From NCBI RefSeq assembly GCF_022601975.1, contig NZ_JAKVIR010000015.1, forward strand, positions 1-64,000: a stretch of DNA of 64,000 bases. Direction: 5' to 3'. The translations under genes were made by a program, and so were the position numbers. The notes below the pieces were generated by a model. That model ran no database searches. It was given only the letters and a program-made list of their open reading frames with translations, and was not told where the DNA came from. Numbering within the stretch: position 1 is the stretch's first letter; every line of letters starts with the position of its first letter. The DNA comes from Pontibacter sp. E15-1. Lineage in GTDB: Bacteria; Bacteroidota; Bacteroidia; Cytophagales; Hymenobacteraceae. Positions 7,103 to 14,257 of the stretch are shown in pieces.

Positions 7103-9235
7103 TTAGTTTTTTCGCCTGTGGATCACTTGCCAGTACTTGTCGCGGAGGTCTTTAATGGTCTGCTCGAGTAGCTTTATCTGCGTCACGTCCCTGAAATCGA
7201 CAACGCCAGCGGTGATTTCCCCTTCCTCGTTTTTGATGGGCCTGCCGGTCACGCTAATGTACCGCCCATTGGGGTAGCGCTCGTTCTTGATCAGCATCTC
7301 CACACTGTCGGTGATTTCCCCTTTAAGCGCCCTGGCCAAAGGCAGCTCTTCCGGAGGAAACACGGTCTTTCCGTCAAGCTTATACACGCCGTATGCGGAA
7401 GTCCAATCAGGTATGGAAACCTCCGCGGCACCCACTCCCAGAATCTCCTCTGCGTTTTTGTTGAACAGGATAAACTTGCCTTGTCTGTTTGCCACAATTA
7501 CACCCTCCCCGATGTTAGCAATCACGGTTTTCAGGCGCTGCTCACTTTCCTGGATAAGCGCCTCCAGCTGTTTCTCGTGCGTAACATCCCGGCACACCAC
7601 CACGCTGCCGATCACCTTTTCCTGGTCATCCAGTATGGGCCTGCCGGTTACTTTGATGGCCCTCCCCTCCGGGATGTTGTCGTTGCGAACGAACAGCTCC
7701 ACGTCTGTGGTAGACTCTCCCCTGAGGCCCCGTGCCAGCGGCAACTCTTCGGAAGGGTAAAGCGTTACGCCGTCCGGCCTGAAGGAGCCATACCTGGCCG
7801 ACCAGTCAGGCAGGGCCGTGTCCGTTATGCCGAGGCCCAGGATCTGCTCCGCGATATCGTTGAAGTAAGTGAAGTTGCCACTGGCGTCTGCCACCACCAC
7901 GGCCTCGCCCAGGCTGGAGAGGATGGCGTTCAGTTTCTGTTCGCTCTCGCGCAGCAGCACCTCCGCCTTCTTGCGCTCGGTAATATCTGTGGCGATGCTG
8001 CACAGGGCATTGATGCGGCCCTTGGTGTCTTTCAGCGGAAACTTGACGGTGATGTAGGTGCGCTCCTCTGGCTCCACCAGAAACACCTCTTCCATGGTCT
8101 TCGTCTCGCCCAACTCTAGCACTTCCCGGTCATGTTCCTCAATCAGCTCGCCCACTTTCTCCGGAAACACCTCGGCATCTGTCTTCCCTTTTATCGCTTC
8201 GGACCGGACCTCAAACACCCGCTCGAACTCCATGTTCACCAACTCAAACCGCCCGTTTATGTCTTTGATATAGATGGGTGTCGTGGTATTGTCAAGGATA
8301 GACTGCAGTTTGTGGGCGTTCTCCCGGAGAATCAGGTCGGCTCTGTAACGCTCCTGGTTGGCGCGGTACCGCTCCACGGCGTTTCTGCCCAGCAGCACCA
8401 TCGAGACGATGTACGTCAGGAGCGCAAACACGGCCGTGCCGAACTCCTGGGAGTAGTACCCCGAGTATTCGCCCTGCAGCTTGATCCAGCCAACCAACAG
8501 CGGAAGCACCAGGGCAAACAGGCGCGCGAAGAGCTTCTCCCCGGTGTTCTCGCAAAATATCGGCAACATAATTCCCTTGTCTGGGCGTGCAAAGAGCAGG
8601 CCCACCGCCAGAATCAGGAAAACAAGGGCCGTGTGCAGGGCCATGGGTATATAGGCCGCATACCCAATCAGGTAGCTCACCCCATACACATACCCGTACA
8701 ACGACAGCAGCGAAATCAGGGTGACCAGTATGCTCAGGAACTGCGCGGGCCTGTTCTTTCCGGAGGTTTCCTTATCAATCAGGAGTATGGCCAGGGAGGA
8801 AAGGACAAAGCAGAAGGCCGTGTTGGGGGCCATCCTGTTTTGCAAGCCCCGGCTTGTCTCCTGCAGCTCGTCGGCAAACAGCACATGGTCCAGGGGGTAG
8901 TCCCAGCCGATAAACAGGGAGATAAACTTAAGGGAGGAGAGCAGCAACACTGCGGCCCCAAACATACGGGAGAGCCGCAGCCCCGGGCCCCACGGTTTCT
9001 TCAGCAGCCCAAGGCCTATACCGGAGAGGATAAAGCAGATGGCCGTCAGTGGGTTCATAGCCACGTATTCCTCCCAGATCCGCTTCAACACTTCGATCCT
9101 GAAGGTCCAGCCTGCCAGCACCAATACCCCCGCAAGGATAACCAGCGCACTGGCCAGCCCTGACAGCAGAACCAGCCTCTTTTTTATGGCTGGCTTCACC
9201 GTTGTTGGGTTATCGGGTAGCGTTATGGGCCCCAT
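7103..9235 (-). CDS. Membrane PAS-repeat sensor without a kinase domain, divergent from kaiC
   Basis: A 710-residue protein. The N-terminal 300 residues contain about seven or eight membrane helices; three PAS domains follow (roughly 312-430, 436-560 and 566-690). PAS2 and PAS3 are close to each other and share the pattern PDW..YG, DG.T..P.EELPLAR.L.GE and VTGRPI, which points to a tandem duplication. The protein ends about 20 residues after PAS3 in a short coil (LEQTIKDLRDKYW), exactly where a histidine kinase dimerisation domain would normally begin, and no HisKA, HATPase, GGDEF or EAL domain is present. It is transcribed divergently from the kaiC operon across a 610-base gap. By context it may pass a signal to the KaiC-linked histidine kinase, but this is inference. 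A truncated kinase is the alternative. Confidence 0.85.
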   Translation of the reverse strand: MGPITLPDNPTTVKPAIKKRLVLLSGLASALVILAGVLVLAGWTFRIEVLKRIWEEYVAMNPLTAICFILSGIGLGLLKKPWGPGLRLSRMFGAAVLLLSSLKFISLFIGWDYPLDHVLFADELQETSRGLQNRMAPNTAFCFVLSSLAILLIDKETSGKNRPAQFLSILVTLISLLSLYGYVYGVSYLIGYAAYIPMALHTALVFLILAVGLLFARPDKGIMLPIFCENTGEKLFARLFALVLPLLVGWIKLQGEYSGYYSQEFGTAVFALLTYIVSMVLLGRNAVERYRANQERYRADLILRENAHKLQSILDNTTTPIYIKDINGRFELVNMEFERVFEVRSEAIKGKTDAEVFPEKVGELIEEHDREVLELGETKTMEEVFLVEPEERTYITVKFPLKDTKGRINALCSIATDITERKKAEVLLRESEQKLNAILSSLGEAVVVADASGNFTYFNDIAEQILGLGITDTALPDWSARYGSFRPDGVTLYPSEELPLARGLRGESTTDVELFVRNDNIPEGRAIKVTGRPILDDQEKVIGSVVVCRDVTHEKQLEALIQESEQRLKTVIANIGEGVIVANRQGKFILFNKNAEEILGVGAAEVSIPDWTSAYGVYKLDGKTVFPPEELPLARALKGEITDSVEMLIKNERYPNGRYISVTGRPIKNEEGEITAGVVDFRDVTQIKLLEQTIKDLRDKYWQVIHRRKN

Positions 9236-9845
9236 GGTTGCTTAATGCAGGTTTAAGTTTCTTCTTCCGGGCTGCAAAACGCACCGCTAGGGCAACGGGT
9301 AGGCAATGCCTTTTGCAGGCCTGGGTATGCTATTCTACTTCTTCTACGATGCAGGAAGCTGTTGCGTAGTAAATTCACATATATTGATTTTGAACTGATG
9401 CCTGGCCAGCCCACCGTGGTCGACACCACACACAAGCCACAAATACCCAGCGCGTTGCCTGCATAGGCTACCAGCCTTTCCGTGCGCTTTTCAGGCACCC
9501 GACACATCCTCGTAATCGCCCTGACTGGCAAGGCAACAGCCTCGGGCAGCATTCTGGAGCGGATTTTGCATAATCCGTTGCGCAGCCAACTAAAAAAGTA
9601 CAATACGCGGCAAGGTATACAGCGCCAACAGACGGCGTATAACCAACTCTGCGCCTGCTCTTTTGCGGAACGTTGCCACCGCATACCCCACTTCTCTTTC
9701 GCGGCAGCAAAAGGGGCGAAACTGACCGGAGAAAAACGGTTTTTTGTGCGAGGGGAAATTAAATGCGGCTAATTTGTTGCCACAAATACCATAATTATTC
9801 TCTAACTTAGCATTTCCAAAATTGTCCTATTTTCCTTCCATCACT
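9236..9845. other. Divergent control region between the PAS sensor and kaiC
   Basis: A 610-base region with no convincing gene; the open frames here are short, overlap each other and show no recognisable protein. It must hold the promoters of both the PAS sensor (minus) and the kai operon (plus). A TTTG at 9773-9776 and AT-rich DNA to 9815 are the best candidates for the kaiC promoter, but no full consensus could be fixed. Confidence 0.5.
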
Positions 9846-11357
9846 ATGCCGCATAAAATTAACTCTTTTCAACTACCCAAATCCAAAACCGGTATCCAGG
9901 GCCTCGACGACATCACAGGCGGCGGCTTCCCGACAGGAAGGCCCACGCTTGTTTGCGGAAGCGCAGGCTGCGGCAAGACCCTGATGGCAATGGAGTTCCT
10001 TATCCGGGGCATCGTGGAGTATGACGAGCCGGGTGTTTTTATGTCTTTTGAGGAAACAAAGGAAGAGTTGGCTTACAACGTGGCGTCCCTGGGCTTTGAC
10101 CTGAACCAGCTTGTGGCCGAAGGCAAGCTAAAACTGGACCATGTGCAGGTGGAGCGAAGCGAGATTGAGGAAACCGGGGAGTATGACCTGGAGGGCCTCT
10201 TCATACGCCTGGGCTACGCCATCGATACCATCGGGGCAAAACGGGTCGTGCTGGACACTATCGAAAGCCTGTTCTCCGGCCTCAGCAACCAGGCCATCCT
10301 GCGCTCTGAGATCAGGAGGCTGTTCAGGTTTCTGAAAGACAAAGGGGTAACGGCCGTGATAACCGGAGAGCGCGGAGATGGCACCCTCACCCGCCAGGGC
10401 CTTGAGGAGTATGTGTCTGACTGCGTGATCCTGCTCGACCACCGCGTGATTGACCAGGTGTCGACCCGCAGGTTGCGCATCGTAAAATACAGGGGCACGG
10501 TGCACGGCACCAACGAGTACCCGTTCCTGATCGACGAAGACGGCATCTCGGTGTTACCAGCCACTTCTTTAGAGCTGAAATACAGTGCCAGCAAGGAGAT
10601 TGTCTCGTCTGGTATACCGCAGCTTGATGAGATGCTGGGCGCCGGAGGGTTCTTTAAGGGAAGCAGCGTACTTGTTTCGGGGTTTGCGGGCACGGGCAAG
10701 ACGAGCATTGCCGCGTACTTTGCCAACCAAGCCTGCCAGGATCAAAAGCGCTGCCTGTACTTTGCCTTCGAGGAATCGCAGGCGCAGATCATCCGCAACA
10801 TGGAGTCTATAGACCTTCAGCTCGCCCCTTACGTAGAAGAAGGCCTGCTAAAAGTTCAGGCCAACAGCCCAACGGTGCATGGCCTGGAAATGCACCTGGT
10901 GGCGATGCACAAGTCGATCAAGGCGTTTAAGCCGGACGTAGTGATTGTAGACCCGATCACCAACCTGCGCACCATAGCCTCTTGCAAAGAAGTGAAGGCC
11001 ATGCTGACCCGCCTGATCTATTTCCTGAAATCAGAGGGTATAACCGCGCTGTTTGTTTCGGAGATCAAGGACTCGGATTTGCTGGACCCGGAAGACGAGG
11101 GTATCTCGTCTCTGATAGATACCTGGCTCATGGTTCGGGACATAGAGGCGAACGGCGAACGCAACCGCGGCCTGTATGTGCTTAAATCCAGAGGCATGCA
11201 CAACTCCAACAAGGTGCGGGAGTTTATCATAGACGACAACGGACTTCGCCTCATTGACGTCGACACGGACAGGGCGGGCAACATCCTGATTGGCTCAGCG
11301 CGCGAATCAAACCAAAACGGCAAGCACGCTGTTGGGGCTAAAACTATCAACCAATAA
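9846..11357 (+). CDS. kaiC: KaiC family clock ATPase
   Basis: A 503-residue double-RecA protein of the KaiC type. The CI half has Walker A GSAGCGKT (residues 38-45), catalytic Glu69/Glu70 (SFEE), and the [11 protein letters not shown] and [10 protein letters not shown] motifs; the CII half has Walker A GFAGTGKT (279-286), Glu309/Glu310 (FEE) and the phosphorylation segment GISSLIDT. Ser421 and Ser422 sit where Synechococcus KaiC has Ser431 and Thr432, and Glu416 sits where Thr426 is. KaiC hexamers autophosphorylate and hydrolyse ATP. The C-terminal tail is short and lacks the KaiA-binding peptide, in line with no kaiA in the window. It heads an operon with two kaiB genes and a histidine kinase. 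ATG 9846 is preferred to a TTG at 9822. Confidence 0.96.
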
Positions 11358-11376
11358 GTTCAAACCTATACTAGAA

Positions 11377-11673
11377 ATGACTGAAGATACAGAGGAGTTT
11401 TTTGAACTGAGGTTGTATGTGGCAGGCCAGACGCAAAAATCTATGGCTGCTATAGCTAACCTCAAAAAGTACTGCGAGGAGCACCTGAATGGCAAATACA
11501 AGATCGAGGTGATTGATCTGCTGAAACATCCGGAATTGGCTGAGAGCGACCAGATTGTCGCCATCCCGACTTTGGTGAAAAAGGTGCCGCTTCCTGTGAG
11601 AAAAATTATTGGAGACCTGTCTAACAAAGAGAAAGTGCTGGTGGGCCTGGATATTAGAATAATGCATGCATGA
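11377..11673 (+). CDS. kaiB: KaiB family protein, first copy
   Basis: A 98-residue thioredoxin-like KaiB homologue. Matching motifs are [11 protein letters not shown] at the first strand, the NLKKYCEEH helix, [16 protein letters not shown], the cis-proline segment [21 protein letters not shown], and the C-terminal EKVLVGLD, which holds the Gly and Asp linked to fold switching in cyanobacterial KaiB. KaiB binds the KaiC CI ring and drives its dephosphorylated phase. It lies 19 bases after kaiC and overlaps the second kaiB by four bases. Compared with cyanobacterial KaiB, the NTPNSVRA helix start reads QTQKSMAA, so an otherwise common arginine is missing here but kept in the second copy. Confidence 0.95.
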
Positions 11674-12002
11674 GTGATGGAATAGAAGATATTGATGAGT
11701 GGCTAAATATACCTGCCCCAACTAACGAGAAGTATATATTACGCTTATACATTACCGGCATGACGCCTAACTCCAGGAGAGCCGTTGCAAACTTAAAGAC
11801 TATTTGTGAAGAGCACTTGAGCGGGAGGTATGAATTGAAGGTAATCGATATCTTTCAGGAACCCACGCTGGCGGAGGGAGAGCAGATTATTGCCGCCCCC
11901 ACGCTCATCAAACAGCTGCCTTCCCCGCTAAGGAGATTGATCGGCGACATGTCTAACACTGAAAAAGTGCTGTTAGGCCTTGATCTGCACAAAAAAGAAT
12001 AA
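11670..12002 (+). CDS. kaiB: KaiB family protein, second copy
   Basis: A 110-residue KaiB homologue translated from an ATGA overlap with the first copy, so the two are probably translationally coupled. It keeps [54 protein letters not shown] and EKVLLGLD. It is closer to cyanobacterial KaiB over the TPNSxRA segment than the first copy is, and has an extra N-terminal stretch of about 18 residues ([20 protein letters not shown]) rich in acidic residues. Two unlike KaiB proteins in one operon suggest different roles: one could bind KaiC and the other a partner such as the histidine kinase. That division of labour is inference. Confidence 0.95.
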
Positions 12003-12027
12003 ATTGAACTTAGACAGTTGATCTGGA

Positions 12028-13329
12028 TTGATAATTTTGAGCACCCATTCGGAAAATAAATCCATTGAAGCGCTTCGGCATGAGATAAACGAGCTACACT
12101 ACAAACTACAGGTAGCCGAGGACACCATTGAGGCTATACGCACCGGGGCAGTGGATGCCCTGGCCGTGCAGGACAATGGGGTAACCAAGATTTTCACTCT
12201 CGAAGGTGCTGAGCAAACCTACAGGGTGCTGGTGGAGAACATGAGCGAAGGCGCTGTTACCCTGAACCAAGATGGGCTTATTCTCTACAGCAACTCTCAG
12301 TTTGCCAAGCTTATCAATTTGCCCCTGAGCGAGGTAATCGGCTCCTCGTTTGATCGCTTTGTTTCCCCGGAGTACGAAGCGCAGTTCCGGAGAATGTTTC
12401 TGCGCGGCTGGACACAGCAAGTCAGCAGTGAGTGTATCGTGCAACCCGACAACTCCGATGCGCTGCACGTTTACATTTCCCTGACCACCATTGCCGATAA
12501 GGACGAGGAAGTACTGGGGATGATCGTGACCAACCTGTCTGAGCAAAAAGAGCTTGAGAAACTCACCCAGACCCAGGAAGAGCTGTCACGGAAAAACGAG
12601 GAGCTGATTAAAATCAACGATGACCTGGACACGTTTGTATACACTGCCTCCCACGACTTAAAAAACCCTATCCTGAATATTGAAGGTTTGGTGGCCGTGC
12701 TGGATGAGATTCTGGAAAACAACGCTACGGAAGAGGTAAAGGTGGTCCTGAAGCTGATCAACAACTCGGTGGCCCGTTTCAAAACCACCATCCTGGACCT
12801 GACCGAGATCTCGAAGGTGCAGAAAGGGGTAACGGCTCCTGTGGAATCGGTAAACTGCCACCAAACGATTCAGGAAGTGCTGGCCGAACTGCAGCAGATG
12901 ATCACGGCGGCGCACGCCGAGGTAAGCCTGGACATTGGGATTTGCCCGGAGTTTCAGTTCTCGCGGAAAAACTTTCAAAGCATCGTCTACAACCTGCTAA
13001 GCAATGCCATTAAGTACCGCGCCCCCGACAGGAGACTGATGGTGCACGTGAAGATGGAGAAGTTGGAGGAGTATATTTTGCTGCGCGTGCAGGACAACGG
13101 CCTCGGGATTGACCTGAAGCATGAGGCGAAGCTTTTTTCTATGTTTGAGCGCCTGCACAATCATGTCGAGGGAAGCGGCGTCGGGCTATACATCGTCAAG
13201 CGGATTATCGACAATGCGGGCGGGAAAATAACGGTGGAAAGCGAGGTGGGCAAAGGCTCTACGTTTAGCATCTACTTTAAAAGGCCGCAAGCACCTAAGA
13301 TAGTCCCTGGCACCCTTCATACCGCTTAA
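12028..13329 (+). CDS. PAS histidine kinase of the kai operon
   Basis: A soluble histidine kinase of about 433 residues with no membrane segment. An N-terminal coiled coil (EALRHEINELHYKLQ, then AEDTIEAIRTGAVDALAV) leads to one PAS domain (about 65-180), a second coil, a HisKA domain with His209 (TASHDLKNP), and an HATPase domain with NLLSNAIKY, DNGLGID and GSGVGLYIVKRII. It is the last gene of the kaiC-kaiB-kaiB operon, 25 bases after the second kaiB, and is the likely output of the KaiC/KaiB state, as SasA is in cyanobacteria, although it lacks the KaiB-like sensor domain of SasA. There is no cognate response regulator in the window. No ATG is available near the start; TTG at 12028 or 12037 is used, since a stop lies just upstream in frame. 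Confidence 0.92.
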   Translation: MIILSTHSENKSIEALRHEINELHYKLQVAEDTIEAIRTGAVDALAVQDNGVTKIFTLEGAEQTYRVLVENMSEGAVTLNQDGLILYSNSQFAKLINLPLSEVIGSSFDRFVSPEYEAQFRRMFLRGWTQQVSSECIVQPDNSDALHVYISLTTIADKDEEVLGMIVTNLSEQKELEKLTQTQEELSRKNEELIKINDDLDTFVYTASHDLKNPILNIEGLVAVLDEILENNATEEVKVVLKLINNSVARFKTTILDLTEISKVQKGVTAPVESVNCHQTIQEVLAELQQMITAAHAEVSLDIGICPEFQFSRKNFQSIVYNLLSNAIKYRAPDRRLMVHVKMEKLEEYILLRVQDNGLGIDLKHEAKLFSMFERLHNHVEGSGVGLYIVKRIIDNAGGKITVESEVGKGSTFSIYFKRPQAPKIVPGTLHTA

Positions 13330-13838
13330 ACTTCCAAGAGCTGCCTGCCGCATACACCTAAATGCTGTAGCCAGAGGGTATAATATCACTAGCAATTGAT
13401 TAGCACGCATAACACTCGCATATAAGCAAGTGAAATACCCCTCTTGGGGGCAAGAACCATCTTGGGAGCAGGGCCGTGTGCTCTACCAAACTATCCCCTT
13501 GAGGACAAGCAAGAACAGCAGTTTGCCGCTTGCGAGCGGAGCTCAATAGGAGTGTAAAAGCCGAAGCTATTTTGCCAAAAATCAACCTCTTAGAATTATA
13601 TTCTCTATTGTAAACACCCCTCTAGCTCCCCTCAAGGGGAGAATCTGCTAGAATAAAATAGTCCTGCTTTTGGGTAGGGCGGGTTATTCTTTCGTTACTT
13701 CTGAATGAGCCAGCCTAAAGCGCAGAATAACCCACCCCTGCCCCTCCCAAGAGGGGAATTGCACTACTTGAAAGGCAAGGCTGTGTGCACTCATCAATTG
13801 ATATTGGTATAATCCGAAAGAACGGATAGTATAAAAAA
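13330..13838. repeat. Intergenic repeat-rich region
   Basis: About 500 bases with no gene. It holds several copies of a dispersed C/G-block repeat. One copy at 13614-13649 centres on CCCCTCAAGGGG and is about 94 percent identical to 30751-30786. Related blocks lie at 13438-13452, 13494-13505 and 13735-13757. Around 13672-13743 an inverted repeat pairs GGGCGGGTTATTCT with AGAATAACCCACCC. These look like decayed miniature elements rather than regulatory sites of the kai operon. Confidence 0.6.
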
Positions 13839-13877
13839 CAAAAAGGCCTGCAAATCAATGACTTGCAGGCCTTTTTG
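13839..13877 (-). terminator. Strong hairpin terminator of the tmRNA gene
   Basis: A perfect 15-bp stem, CAAAAAGGCCTGCAA at 13839-13853 and its complement at 13863-13877, with a 9-nt loop. The stem starts and ends in A/T runs, so it can end transcription from either side. It lies 12 bases past the tmRNA 3' end. Confidence 0.85.
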
Positions 13878-13889
13878 TTTTAAAACTAG

Positions 13890-14257
13890 TGGAGTAGCAG
13901 GGATTCGAACCCTGGTCCAGACAAGGAAACCGTCGTGCCTTCTACATGCTTAGGCTTATTCGGATTGTCGGGAGCTTGCAAGTATAAGCCAGGCTTATGC
14001 GCACTCCTTATATGCTTTAGTTTCGCCTGTGCATCACATCGCTACACAGACTAGTAAAACGAGTCGAAGCCCCGTATGTGCAGGCAGTTTCACGAAACCT
14101 GCACGAGACTATGGCAATTGCTTAGTACCTAGACTAGGCAGCCATGGCGTAATTAGATTCGCCAGTTATTGTTCGAACGAATTTTTGACAGGTGGTACGT
14201 TCATCACCCGGCATGCTTACACGCAATCTGCGCAAGCTGTCAATTCCAGTCTACCCC
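13890..14257 (-). ncRNA. ssrA: Transfer-messenger RNA (tmRNA)
   Basis: A 368-nt tmRNA on the minus strand, which rescues stalled ribosomes and tags their products for degradation. The 5' end GGGGTAG (14257-14251) pairs with the 3' CTACTCC (13897-13891) to form the acceptor stem, with one G-U pair. The T-arm reads CAGGGTTCGAATCCCTG. The tag reading frame ends GESNYAMAA followed by TAG, near 14143-14172, very like the GETNYALAA tag of Bacteroides. CCA is not encoded and would be added after processing. Pseudoknot regions were not resolved by hand. The gene is flanked by the terminator at 13839-13877 and a TACATTTG promoter element upstream. Confidence 0.93.

Follow-up and report, generated by a model that had tools for sequence, protein, structure and literature searches.

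A helix-hairpin element in the kinase of a KaiA-less kaiC-kaiB-kaiB operon: a candidate for the part that reads KaiC2-type timers

In a 64,000-nucleotide stretch of DNA from Pontibacter sp. E15-1 (contig NZ_JAKVIR010000015.1, positions 1 to 64,000; hereafter the window), we analysed an operon of the order kaiC-kaiB-kaiB-histidine kinase together with a divergent gene for a PAS membrane protein, and above all the first 63 residues of the kinase, which segment we call the reader element. All five genes were found at the places assigned to them in a first-pass annotation, with small changes of start only: for kaiC we took the ATG at 9846, the list of open reading frames (ORFs) offering a TTG at 9822 as an alternative, and for the kinase the TTG at 12037, which start is our own choice. 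The features are:

7103-9235, minus strand: gene for the PAS membrane protein (three PAS stretches by Pfam; hydropathy).
9846-11357, plus strand: kaiC, 503 amino acids (aa), KaiC2-type (PF06745 twice, E 3e-113), with Ser421-Ser422, Glu416 and no C-terminal coiled coil.
11377-11673, plus strand: kaiB1, 98 aa, the strongly conserved paralogue, in the KaiB1 clade (PF07689, 97.8 bits, E 3e-28).
11670-12002, plus strand: kaiB2, 110 aa, the less conserved paralogue (PF07689, 95.7 bits, E 1e-27).
12037-13329, plus strand: putative reader histidine kinase, 430 aa, soluble, element-PAS-HisKA-HATPase_c (Pfam).
12037-12225, plus strand: N-terminal reader element, kinase residues 1-63 (from alignment, genome searches and a structure model).

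The four operon genes are co-directional, with gaps of 19, -4 and 34 bases (kaiB1 and kaiB2 overlapping by 4), and the PAS membrane gene diverges from kaiC at a spacing of 610 bp; simple scans for promoters and terminators yielded no decisive signal for it, and by hydropathy the kinase has no membrane segment. The 5.59-Mb genome contained two KaiB matches, both in the operon, and five KaiC-family matches, of which two were the halves of the operon KaiC and three were weaker and lay elsewhere. The absence of kaiA, already remarked in the first pass, was confirmed for the whole genome, in which the KaiA model PF07688 was not found under a positive S. elongatus control; across 50 genomes no KaiA exceeded the cut-off, one sub-threshold match being obtained (G463, E 0.003). 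The locus accordingly lacks the KaiA by which a KaiABC oscillator is defined.

The window KaiC possesses two KaiC ATPase domains, with Walker A motifs at residues 38 and 279, and belongs to the two-domain PRK09302 family (NF006799, 712.8 bits; cut-off 408), its score of 352.2 bits with the cyanobacterial circadian model TIGR02655 remaining under the equivalog cut-off of 546. The nearest solved structures were those of the Rhodobacter sphaeroides KaiC (8DB3, 8DBA and 8FWI; 594-598 bits, all others reaching at most 365), the species of the first two being as given in PMC10076222. We collected as KaiC2-type the 123 KaiCs, the window's included, that scored above 600 bits with our A1 profile; 121 of the sequences are distinct, those of L082 and L155, and of L172 and L178, being identical. 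The two phosphosite columns held serine in 122 and 123 of the 123, the window having Ser421-Ser422. Numbering the sites T426, S431 and T432 as in PMC3164672, and placing the Thr426 position by our own alignment five residues before the first serine, we counted 82 T, 20 S, 16 A, 3 G, 1 N and 1 E, which single glutamate is the window's Glu416. By these matches the window KaiC is of the KaiA-independent, Rhodobacter (KaiC2) type.

Its tail is a second peculiarity: 24 residues past position 480 versus a median of 93, with at least 75 in 119 of the 123 KaiCs. The C-terminal coiled coil is thus missing in the window, as it is in L056, L061 and L066, and PMC10076222 states that the KaiC2 clade carries this extension only "predominantly". 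In R. sphaeroides the tail forms a 12-helix bundle that joins two hexamers, and a KaiC cut at residue 490 was reported to be hexameric and to phosphorylate at a similar rate while hardly dephosphorylating in ADP (PMC10076222). In our alignment residue 490 of the window corresponds to residue 483 of R. sphaeroides and the window protein terminates at 503; because this end lies near the laboratory cut, we regard the window KaiC as a natural counterpart of that delta-coil mutant. By analogy it would stay hexameric and dephosphorylate slowly unless helped by KaiB.

Among the other genomes of the genus, a KaiC match occurred in 9 of 24, at an identity of only 36-38%, and a KaiB in 18 of 49, always single; a genome of the same order (G028) contained a KaiC 68% identical. 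The window KaiC being alone in its genus among the genomes searched, these comparisons point to acquisition by transfer or to loss in the relatives. A second Kai lineage of the genus (L085, L086, L087) consists of a kaiC 36-38% identical to the window's and one kaiB, with no reader element in the stretch.

The loci that we compared comprised 40 stretches around KaiB or KaiC matches; 80 named loci, most of them from Bacteroidota, these being the best 80 of 588 KaiC relatives and chosen for a close KaiC, with the element as no criterion; and 11 loci of a second phylum plus two from plasmids, both of these last groups selected by the element itself. In the first locus set, a kinase-like neighbour lay downstream in 29 of the 32 loci with a KaiC above 450 bits, and all 29 neighbours shared, ahead of their PAS domain, the sequences AIRxGxVDALxV and YTLxxADxxYR, one of them having been identified by eye rather than by the search pattern. 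Among the 123 KaiC2-type loci, some of which end early at contig ends, the element gene was present in 119, always behind the last kaiB: after two KaiBs in 101 loci, after one in 16, after three in L157 and after four in L174. Eleven of the 123 (L240-L248, L281, L282) had been fetched because of the element; for the loci fetched by KaiC or KaiB only the figure is 108 of 112, and L122 stops before the reader gene. The set includes Thiocystis and metagenome-assembled genomes (MAGs) labelled Methanoperedens, Nitrospira and Gallionella, which labels may be wrong. The four-gene order kaiC-kaiB-kaiB-histidine kinase is therefore real, widespread and far beyond chance, and the conservation in relatives that had been proposed as a check was borne out for this part of the layout.

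The element, AIRxGxVDALxV...YTLxxADxxYR, covers some 60 residues ahead of the PAS domain and is described by a profile of 61 positions (A3). An AlphaFold2 model from 95 aligned readers predicted a helix (residues 10-36), two strands (41-46 and 49-54) and the PAS domain from about residue 58, at a mean predicted local distance difference test score (pLDDT) of 89. The commonest residue reached a frequency of 0.64-0.67 over residues 29-63, compared with 0.55 in the leading coil and 0.62 and 0.42 in the first and second halves of the PAS domain. Two candidate identities were rejected: the element is no known domain, since Pfam has no model for it (best chance matches, E 0.0015) and the solved chains that it retrieved were coiled coils matching by chance (best E 0.0086); and docking in the manner of SasA, through an N-terminal KaiB-like domain, does not apply, there being no KaiB match in the kinase, the model showing helix, hairpin and PAS, and the SasA model NF006800 matching residues 171-414 only. 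Foldseek with the element-PAS model returned PAS-domain structures. What the window kinase does have is the arrangement by which we propose to recognise a KaiC2 reader: a helix-hairpin directly before PAS, in a gene behind kaiB.

The genome-wide distribution of the element was estimated by scoring, in many of the genomes, at most 16-18 candidates, so that very weak copies may have been missed. In the window's phylum (395 genomes, E<=1e-5) the element occurred in 28, once in each, all of them among the 37 KaiB-positive genomes, and in none of the 358 KaiB-negative ones; excluding the 16 genomes from which the profile had been built, the count is 12 KaiB-positive versus 0. Fisher values computed for the association take no account of kinship between the genomes. 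In a second phylum, that of the Thiocystis genome (G457), 12 of 349 genomes had it at E<=1e-3, and ten at E<=1e-7, these ten all being among the 36 KaiB-positive. An eleventh, G576 (E 3.6e-6), has a 39-bit KaiB-like ORF upstream that overlaps the start of the element-like protein. Each of the 38 strong copies started 9-263 bp after a KaiB domain of its own strand, the distance being no more than 100 bases for 36. Inspection of 28 places in those 26 KaiB-positive genomes of the second phylum that lack the element revealed neither an element nor a KaiC above 500 bits, three of the places showing no KaiC and two ending at contig ends; the element therefore follows the KaiC2 subfamily and not KaiB in general. 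Twelve genomes holding chosen loci, G457 included, contained exactly one copy each. Among 72,556 plasmids, residues 1-180 of the kinase retrieved 10 records, nine of Cereibacter sphaeroides (KD131 among them) and one of Pararhizobium; the two loci examined, KD131 and Pararhizobium, read kaiC-kaiB(-kaiB)-reader. No phage record matched the N-terminal part of the kinase. A multi-PAS HD-GYP protein that is element-like occurs in L249:7795-11144; a 39-bit KaiB-like ORF runs into its start, and kaiC is absent from that stretch.

The domains behind the element vary. We scanned by Pfam 93 readers, namely the window's and 92 of 117 others after exclusion of near-duplicates and contig-end fragments, and found PAS_9 in 84, HATPase_c in 82, HisKA in 73, HisKA_2 in 3, HisKA_3 and HWE in 1 each, a receiver in 10, HD_5 (HD-GYP) in 3 and GGDEF plus EAL in 2, while at most six had no output at E<=1e-5. 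In a 16-row comparison HD-GYP takes the place of the kinase in three rows (by Pfam for one). In two MAGs (L168:10453-13109 and L185:10429-13208) the reader is split, an element-PAS ORF of 232-233 aa overlapping a HisKA-HATPase-receiver ORF that has no PAS match. The element-PAS portion keeps its place next to kaiB when the output part changes; this portion would therefore be the one that contacts the clock, which is the best argument that the sequences provide. In two loci (L057:7498-7902; L054:6668-7066) the gene of the reader kinase is immediately followed by one for a single-domain response regulator, likely the kinase's phosphorylation partner.

The two KaiBs differ in a regular manner. 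In a tree of 240 KaiB sequences, the first-position KaiBs of two-KaiB loci fell without exception (102/102) into one clade (support 0.816), as did 17 of 22 single KaiBs, and the second-position KaiBs, 102 in number, all fell outside it; the conservation of KaiB1 is much above that of KaiB2. By this tree, KaiB1 and KaiB2 are old paralogues kept in a fixed order. In loci with three or four KaiBs only the reader-adjacent one lay outside the KaiB1 clade, the earlier ones being inside; these loci are from an archaeal MAG (L157:7941-14407; kaiC, then three KaiBs before the reader) and a Planctomycetota MAG (L174:4811-10742; kaiC, then four). Single-KaiB loci with the element had the KaiB1 type in 15 of 16 (exception, L240), and the element therefore tracks KaiC2 and KaiB1, not KaiB2. 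Both KaiBs pass the Pfam cut-off of 27 bits for PF07689 and remain below the equivalog cut-off of TIGR02654, the cyanobacterial circadian KaiB (100.0 and 105.9 bits; cut-off 145.3); with NF006798 (cut-off 110), KaiB1 scored under (105.3) and KaiB2 over (111.1). The best solved match of KaiB1 was the R. sphaeroides KaiB (8FWJ_M, 108.9 bits), and those of KaiB2 were other KaiBs, 2QKE first, with the R. sphaeroides KaiB at 90.6 bits. The AlphaFold2 model of KaiB2 runs beta-alpha-beta-alpha-beta-beta-alpha, a thioredoxin-like shape whose best fold matches were fold-switched KaiB structures. At the place of kaiB2, L056 (8126-8374) and L061 (8754-9002) have an 82-aa ORF not recognised by the KaiB profile, and their KaiC is also coil-less. 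Elsewhere, L077:6917-11136 and L083:6091-10309 contain a 90-aa KaiB flanked by two kinase-like genes, of 396 and 917 aa; kaiC is absent from both stretches, and this KaiB may operate without KaiC.

On these grounds we propose, at a probability of roughly 0.6, that the operon would encode a KaiBC timer which works without KaiA, as in the KaiC2 group of R. sphaeroides, and is read by its own kinase through the N-terminal element. KaiC would autophosphorylate on Ser421/Ser422 while ATP is high; KaiB1 would bind the CI ring of KaiC and, when the ATP/ADP ratio falls, hasten ATP hydrolysis and dephosphorylation; and the soluble kinase would read the phosphorylation or the KaiB-bound state by means of the helix-hairpin, which element would dock on KaiC or on the KaiC-KaiB complex, the state then passing through PAS to the kinase. 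KaiB2, whose gene lies beside that of the reader, may act as an additional KaiB, either in competition with KaiB1 or as an aid in recruiting the reader. The model follows R. sphaeroides, whose KaiC autophosphorylates without KaiA, whose KaiB binds the post-hydrolysis state and in which removal of the coil has the effect given above (PMC10076222). The genes and their order, the subfamily, the KaiB1/KaiB2 split, the co-occurrence of the element with KaiC2 and KaiB, the exchange of outputs and the loss of the coil are what we observed; from them we infer the docking and readout function of the element, the role of KaiB2 and the direction of the signal. The wider formulation, that helix-hairpin and PAS together form a purpose-made connector to the KaiA-less KaiC2 timers of bacteria and archaea, with interchangeable outputs (phosphorelay, cyclic di-GMP synthesis or breakdown) and KaiB2 as the readout-side KaiB, and that it supplies the missing non-cyanobacterial output, has in our estimation an even chance of being correct.

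Several findings weigh against the proposed reader mechanism. Nine of the 37 KaiB-positive genomes of the window's phylum lack the element (G043, G052, G116, G125, G215, G222, G254, G296, G410): three of these have a KaiC2-type locus with one KaiB and no element gene (L069 of G043, L073, L080), G125 has another KaiC, G052, G222 and G410 have a KaiB without KaiC in the stretch, and G215 and G254 show partial KaiB matches. In the second phylum, G806 gave a weak element match (E 3.6e-4), probably by chance, with no kai gene in its stretch. The hairpin is modelled with moderate confidence only (mean pLDDT of 73, 78 and 63 for residues 31-40, 41-50 and 51-60), and the KaiB2 model was given little weight; AlphaFold2 may have a general bias towards the fold-switched form of KaiB. 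No response regulator adjoins the window kinase. The loss of the coil together with Glu416, moreover, could mean that the window copy is altered or decaying.

Of the alternatives, the one that survives best is that KaiC and KaiB respond to stress or to the energy state as a switch that keeps no time, as reported for the KaiC homologues of Legionella and Pseudomonas, to which reading we would grant slightly less than even odds: stress roles are cited in PMC11832031, and the missing coil should slow resetting (PMC10076222). Such a switch is nevertheless compatible with the reader mechanism and in no conflict with it. The main rival to a readout port is common descent; the element may be kept only because the readers share one ancestor that travelled with the operon, in which event it would be an ordinary signalling helix and linker of a single ancestral kinase without any Kai contact. 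The compactness of the operon, apparently inherited as a unit, the lesser conservation of the coil half and the merely coiled-coil-like matches among solved structures agree with this account, which we nonetheless consider unlikely: the element stays beside kaiB with several kinase types, with GGDEF-EAL and with HD-GYP, in bacteria as well as in archaeal MAGs, and the conservation of its hairpin part equals that of the first PAS half and exceeds that of the second.

Slightly less likely still is the reverse direction of signalling, in which the kinase would be an input: its PAS domain would sense a metabolite, light or redox state, KaiC would be adjusted by the kinase or by the element, and the element would touch the Kai proteins with information flowing to the timer. 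PAS does accompany the element in most readers, and for R. sphaeroides it has been suggested that the linked kinase relays redox information to KaiBC (PMC5520375, PMC10931921). The element-PAS proteins, however, end in effectors (cyclic di-GMP enzymes, hybrid kinases), which is a better fit for output, and the window kinase contains no receiver. KaiC is not known to be a target of histidine kinases, which consideration also counts against an input.

The first-pass annotation had gone further and envisaged a possibly little-described five-gene system in which the divergent PAS protein senses, KaiBC stores and the kinase reports. This protein has nine hydropathy peaks, two of them overlapping, at residues 16-283, and no output domain in Pfam. 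Its membrane domain was found in the window and in one other of the 123 KaiC2 loci, a Gallionella MAG (L166:5226-7928) in which a 900-aa protein on the same strand, directly upstream of kaiC, has a weak match (69 bits) to that domain. Over 50 genomes of the genus, the window's own included, one other homologue was encountered (G450, 59% identical), in a genome without KaiB and without the element at E<=1e-3. Of 247 genomes of the phylum, 18 had the membrane domain, four of these being KaiB-positive; domain and KaiB were on separate contigs in G052, G116 and G160 and co-located in the window only. Adjacency in the window and the distantly similar domain of L166 notwithstanding, a five-gene system is thus very improbable on this distribution—one of 18 domain carriers at a kai locus, the 59% homologue in a KaiB-less genome, and 610 bp between the PAS gene and kaiC—and was rejected. 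The divergent PAS protein is a bystander outside the operon system: its gene is not conserved beside kaiC in relatives, which outcome had been named beforehand as refuting the idea, and its part as input sensor finds no support. The notion of KaiC/KaiB as keeper of a state with the kinase as its likely reporter keeps the support of homology, and of homology only, the PAS sensor falling away; neither is the remainder little described, since kaiC-B-PAS/HK operons are published for Rhodobacter and Rhodopseudomonas (PMC4794148).

Returning to the KaiC2 timer with its own reader, the closest known system is the KaiBC hourglass of R. sphaeroides KD131 (PMC10076222), which has the same KaiC subfamily, two serine phosphosites, no KaiA, the order kaiC-kaiB-PAS/HWE kinase on plasmid pRSKD131A and the element itself in the kinase (49.4 bits, ORF residues 4-44). 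It differs in having one KaiB instead of two, an HWE instead of a HisKA kinase and a KaiC that forms a dodecamer through its coiled-coil tail, which the window KaiC lacks. The Rhodopseudomonas palustris operon shares KaiC, KaiB, a PAS histidine kinase and the lack of KaiA, whereas the window has two KaiBs; the accessible text of PMC4794148 does not name the element. Bacteroidetes genomes with only KaiB2 and KaiC2 were reported by Schmelling et al., 2017 (PMC5520375), for the same phylum and KaiC subfamily, no reader being named for them in the portion of that paper available; we offer the element as that reader. The Ramlibacter study describes, outside cyanobacteria, a histidine kinase or a GGDEF/EAL protein directly downstream of kaiC/kaiB in nearly all kaiB-clustered cases, and the part of it at hand describes no common N-terminal element for that group; its RtaNt module, also N-terminal, was defined for kaiC-kinase pairs without kaiB (PMC3164672).

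SasA, from the SasA/RpaA output of Synechococcus, docks by a KaiB-like thioredoxin domain. It resembles the window kinase in being a histidine kinase that reads KaiC, as proposed here, and differs in that the window kinase has no KaiB-like domain and is SasA-like in its kinase part only. By its core the system is accordingly a known KaiC2-KaiB family member whose KaiC has changed in two unusual respects. Operons of the kaiC-kaiB-kinase type have been published, as has the presence of KaiC2 in Bacteroidetes (PMC4794148, PMC5520375), and what is new here is the element. The open-access literature searched yielded no account of it or of the fixed KaiB1-KaiB2 order. To judge by its distribution, it has the look of a general output port, as yet without a name, for timers that lack KaiA; being found in the genome samples searched almost only directly behind clock genes, it is the strongest candidate for the component by which such a timer is read. 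Schmelling et al. conclude that the output of the non-cyanobacterial KaiC homologues must differ from that of Synechococcus (PMC5520375), and, as the element marks the reader in the same operon, that of R. sphaeroides with its KaiC and KaiB structures included, the way in which these homologues pass on their state becomes directly testable with purified parts.

Downstream of the operon, a transfer-messenger RNA (tmRNA) gene at 13887-14257 on the minus strand (Rfam RF00023, 99 bits), missed by ARAGORN, has its 3' end facing the kai genes; an insertion of the operon at that end was considered, and no second copy of the tmRNA 3' end was present within the window. A terminator-like stem lies near this gene, at 13837-13879.

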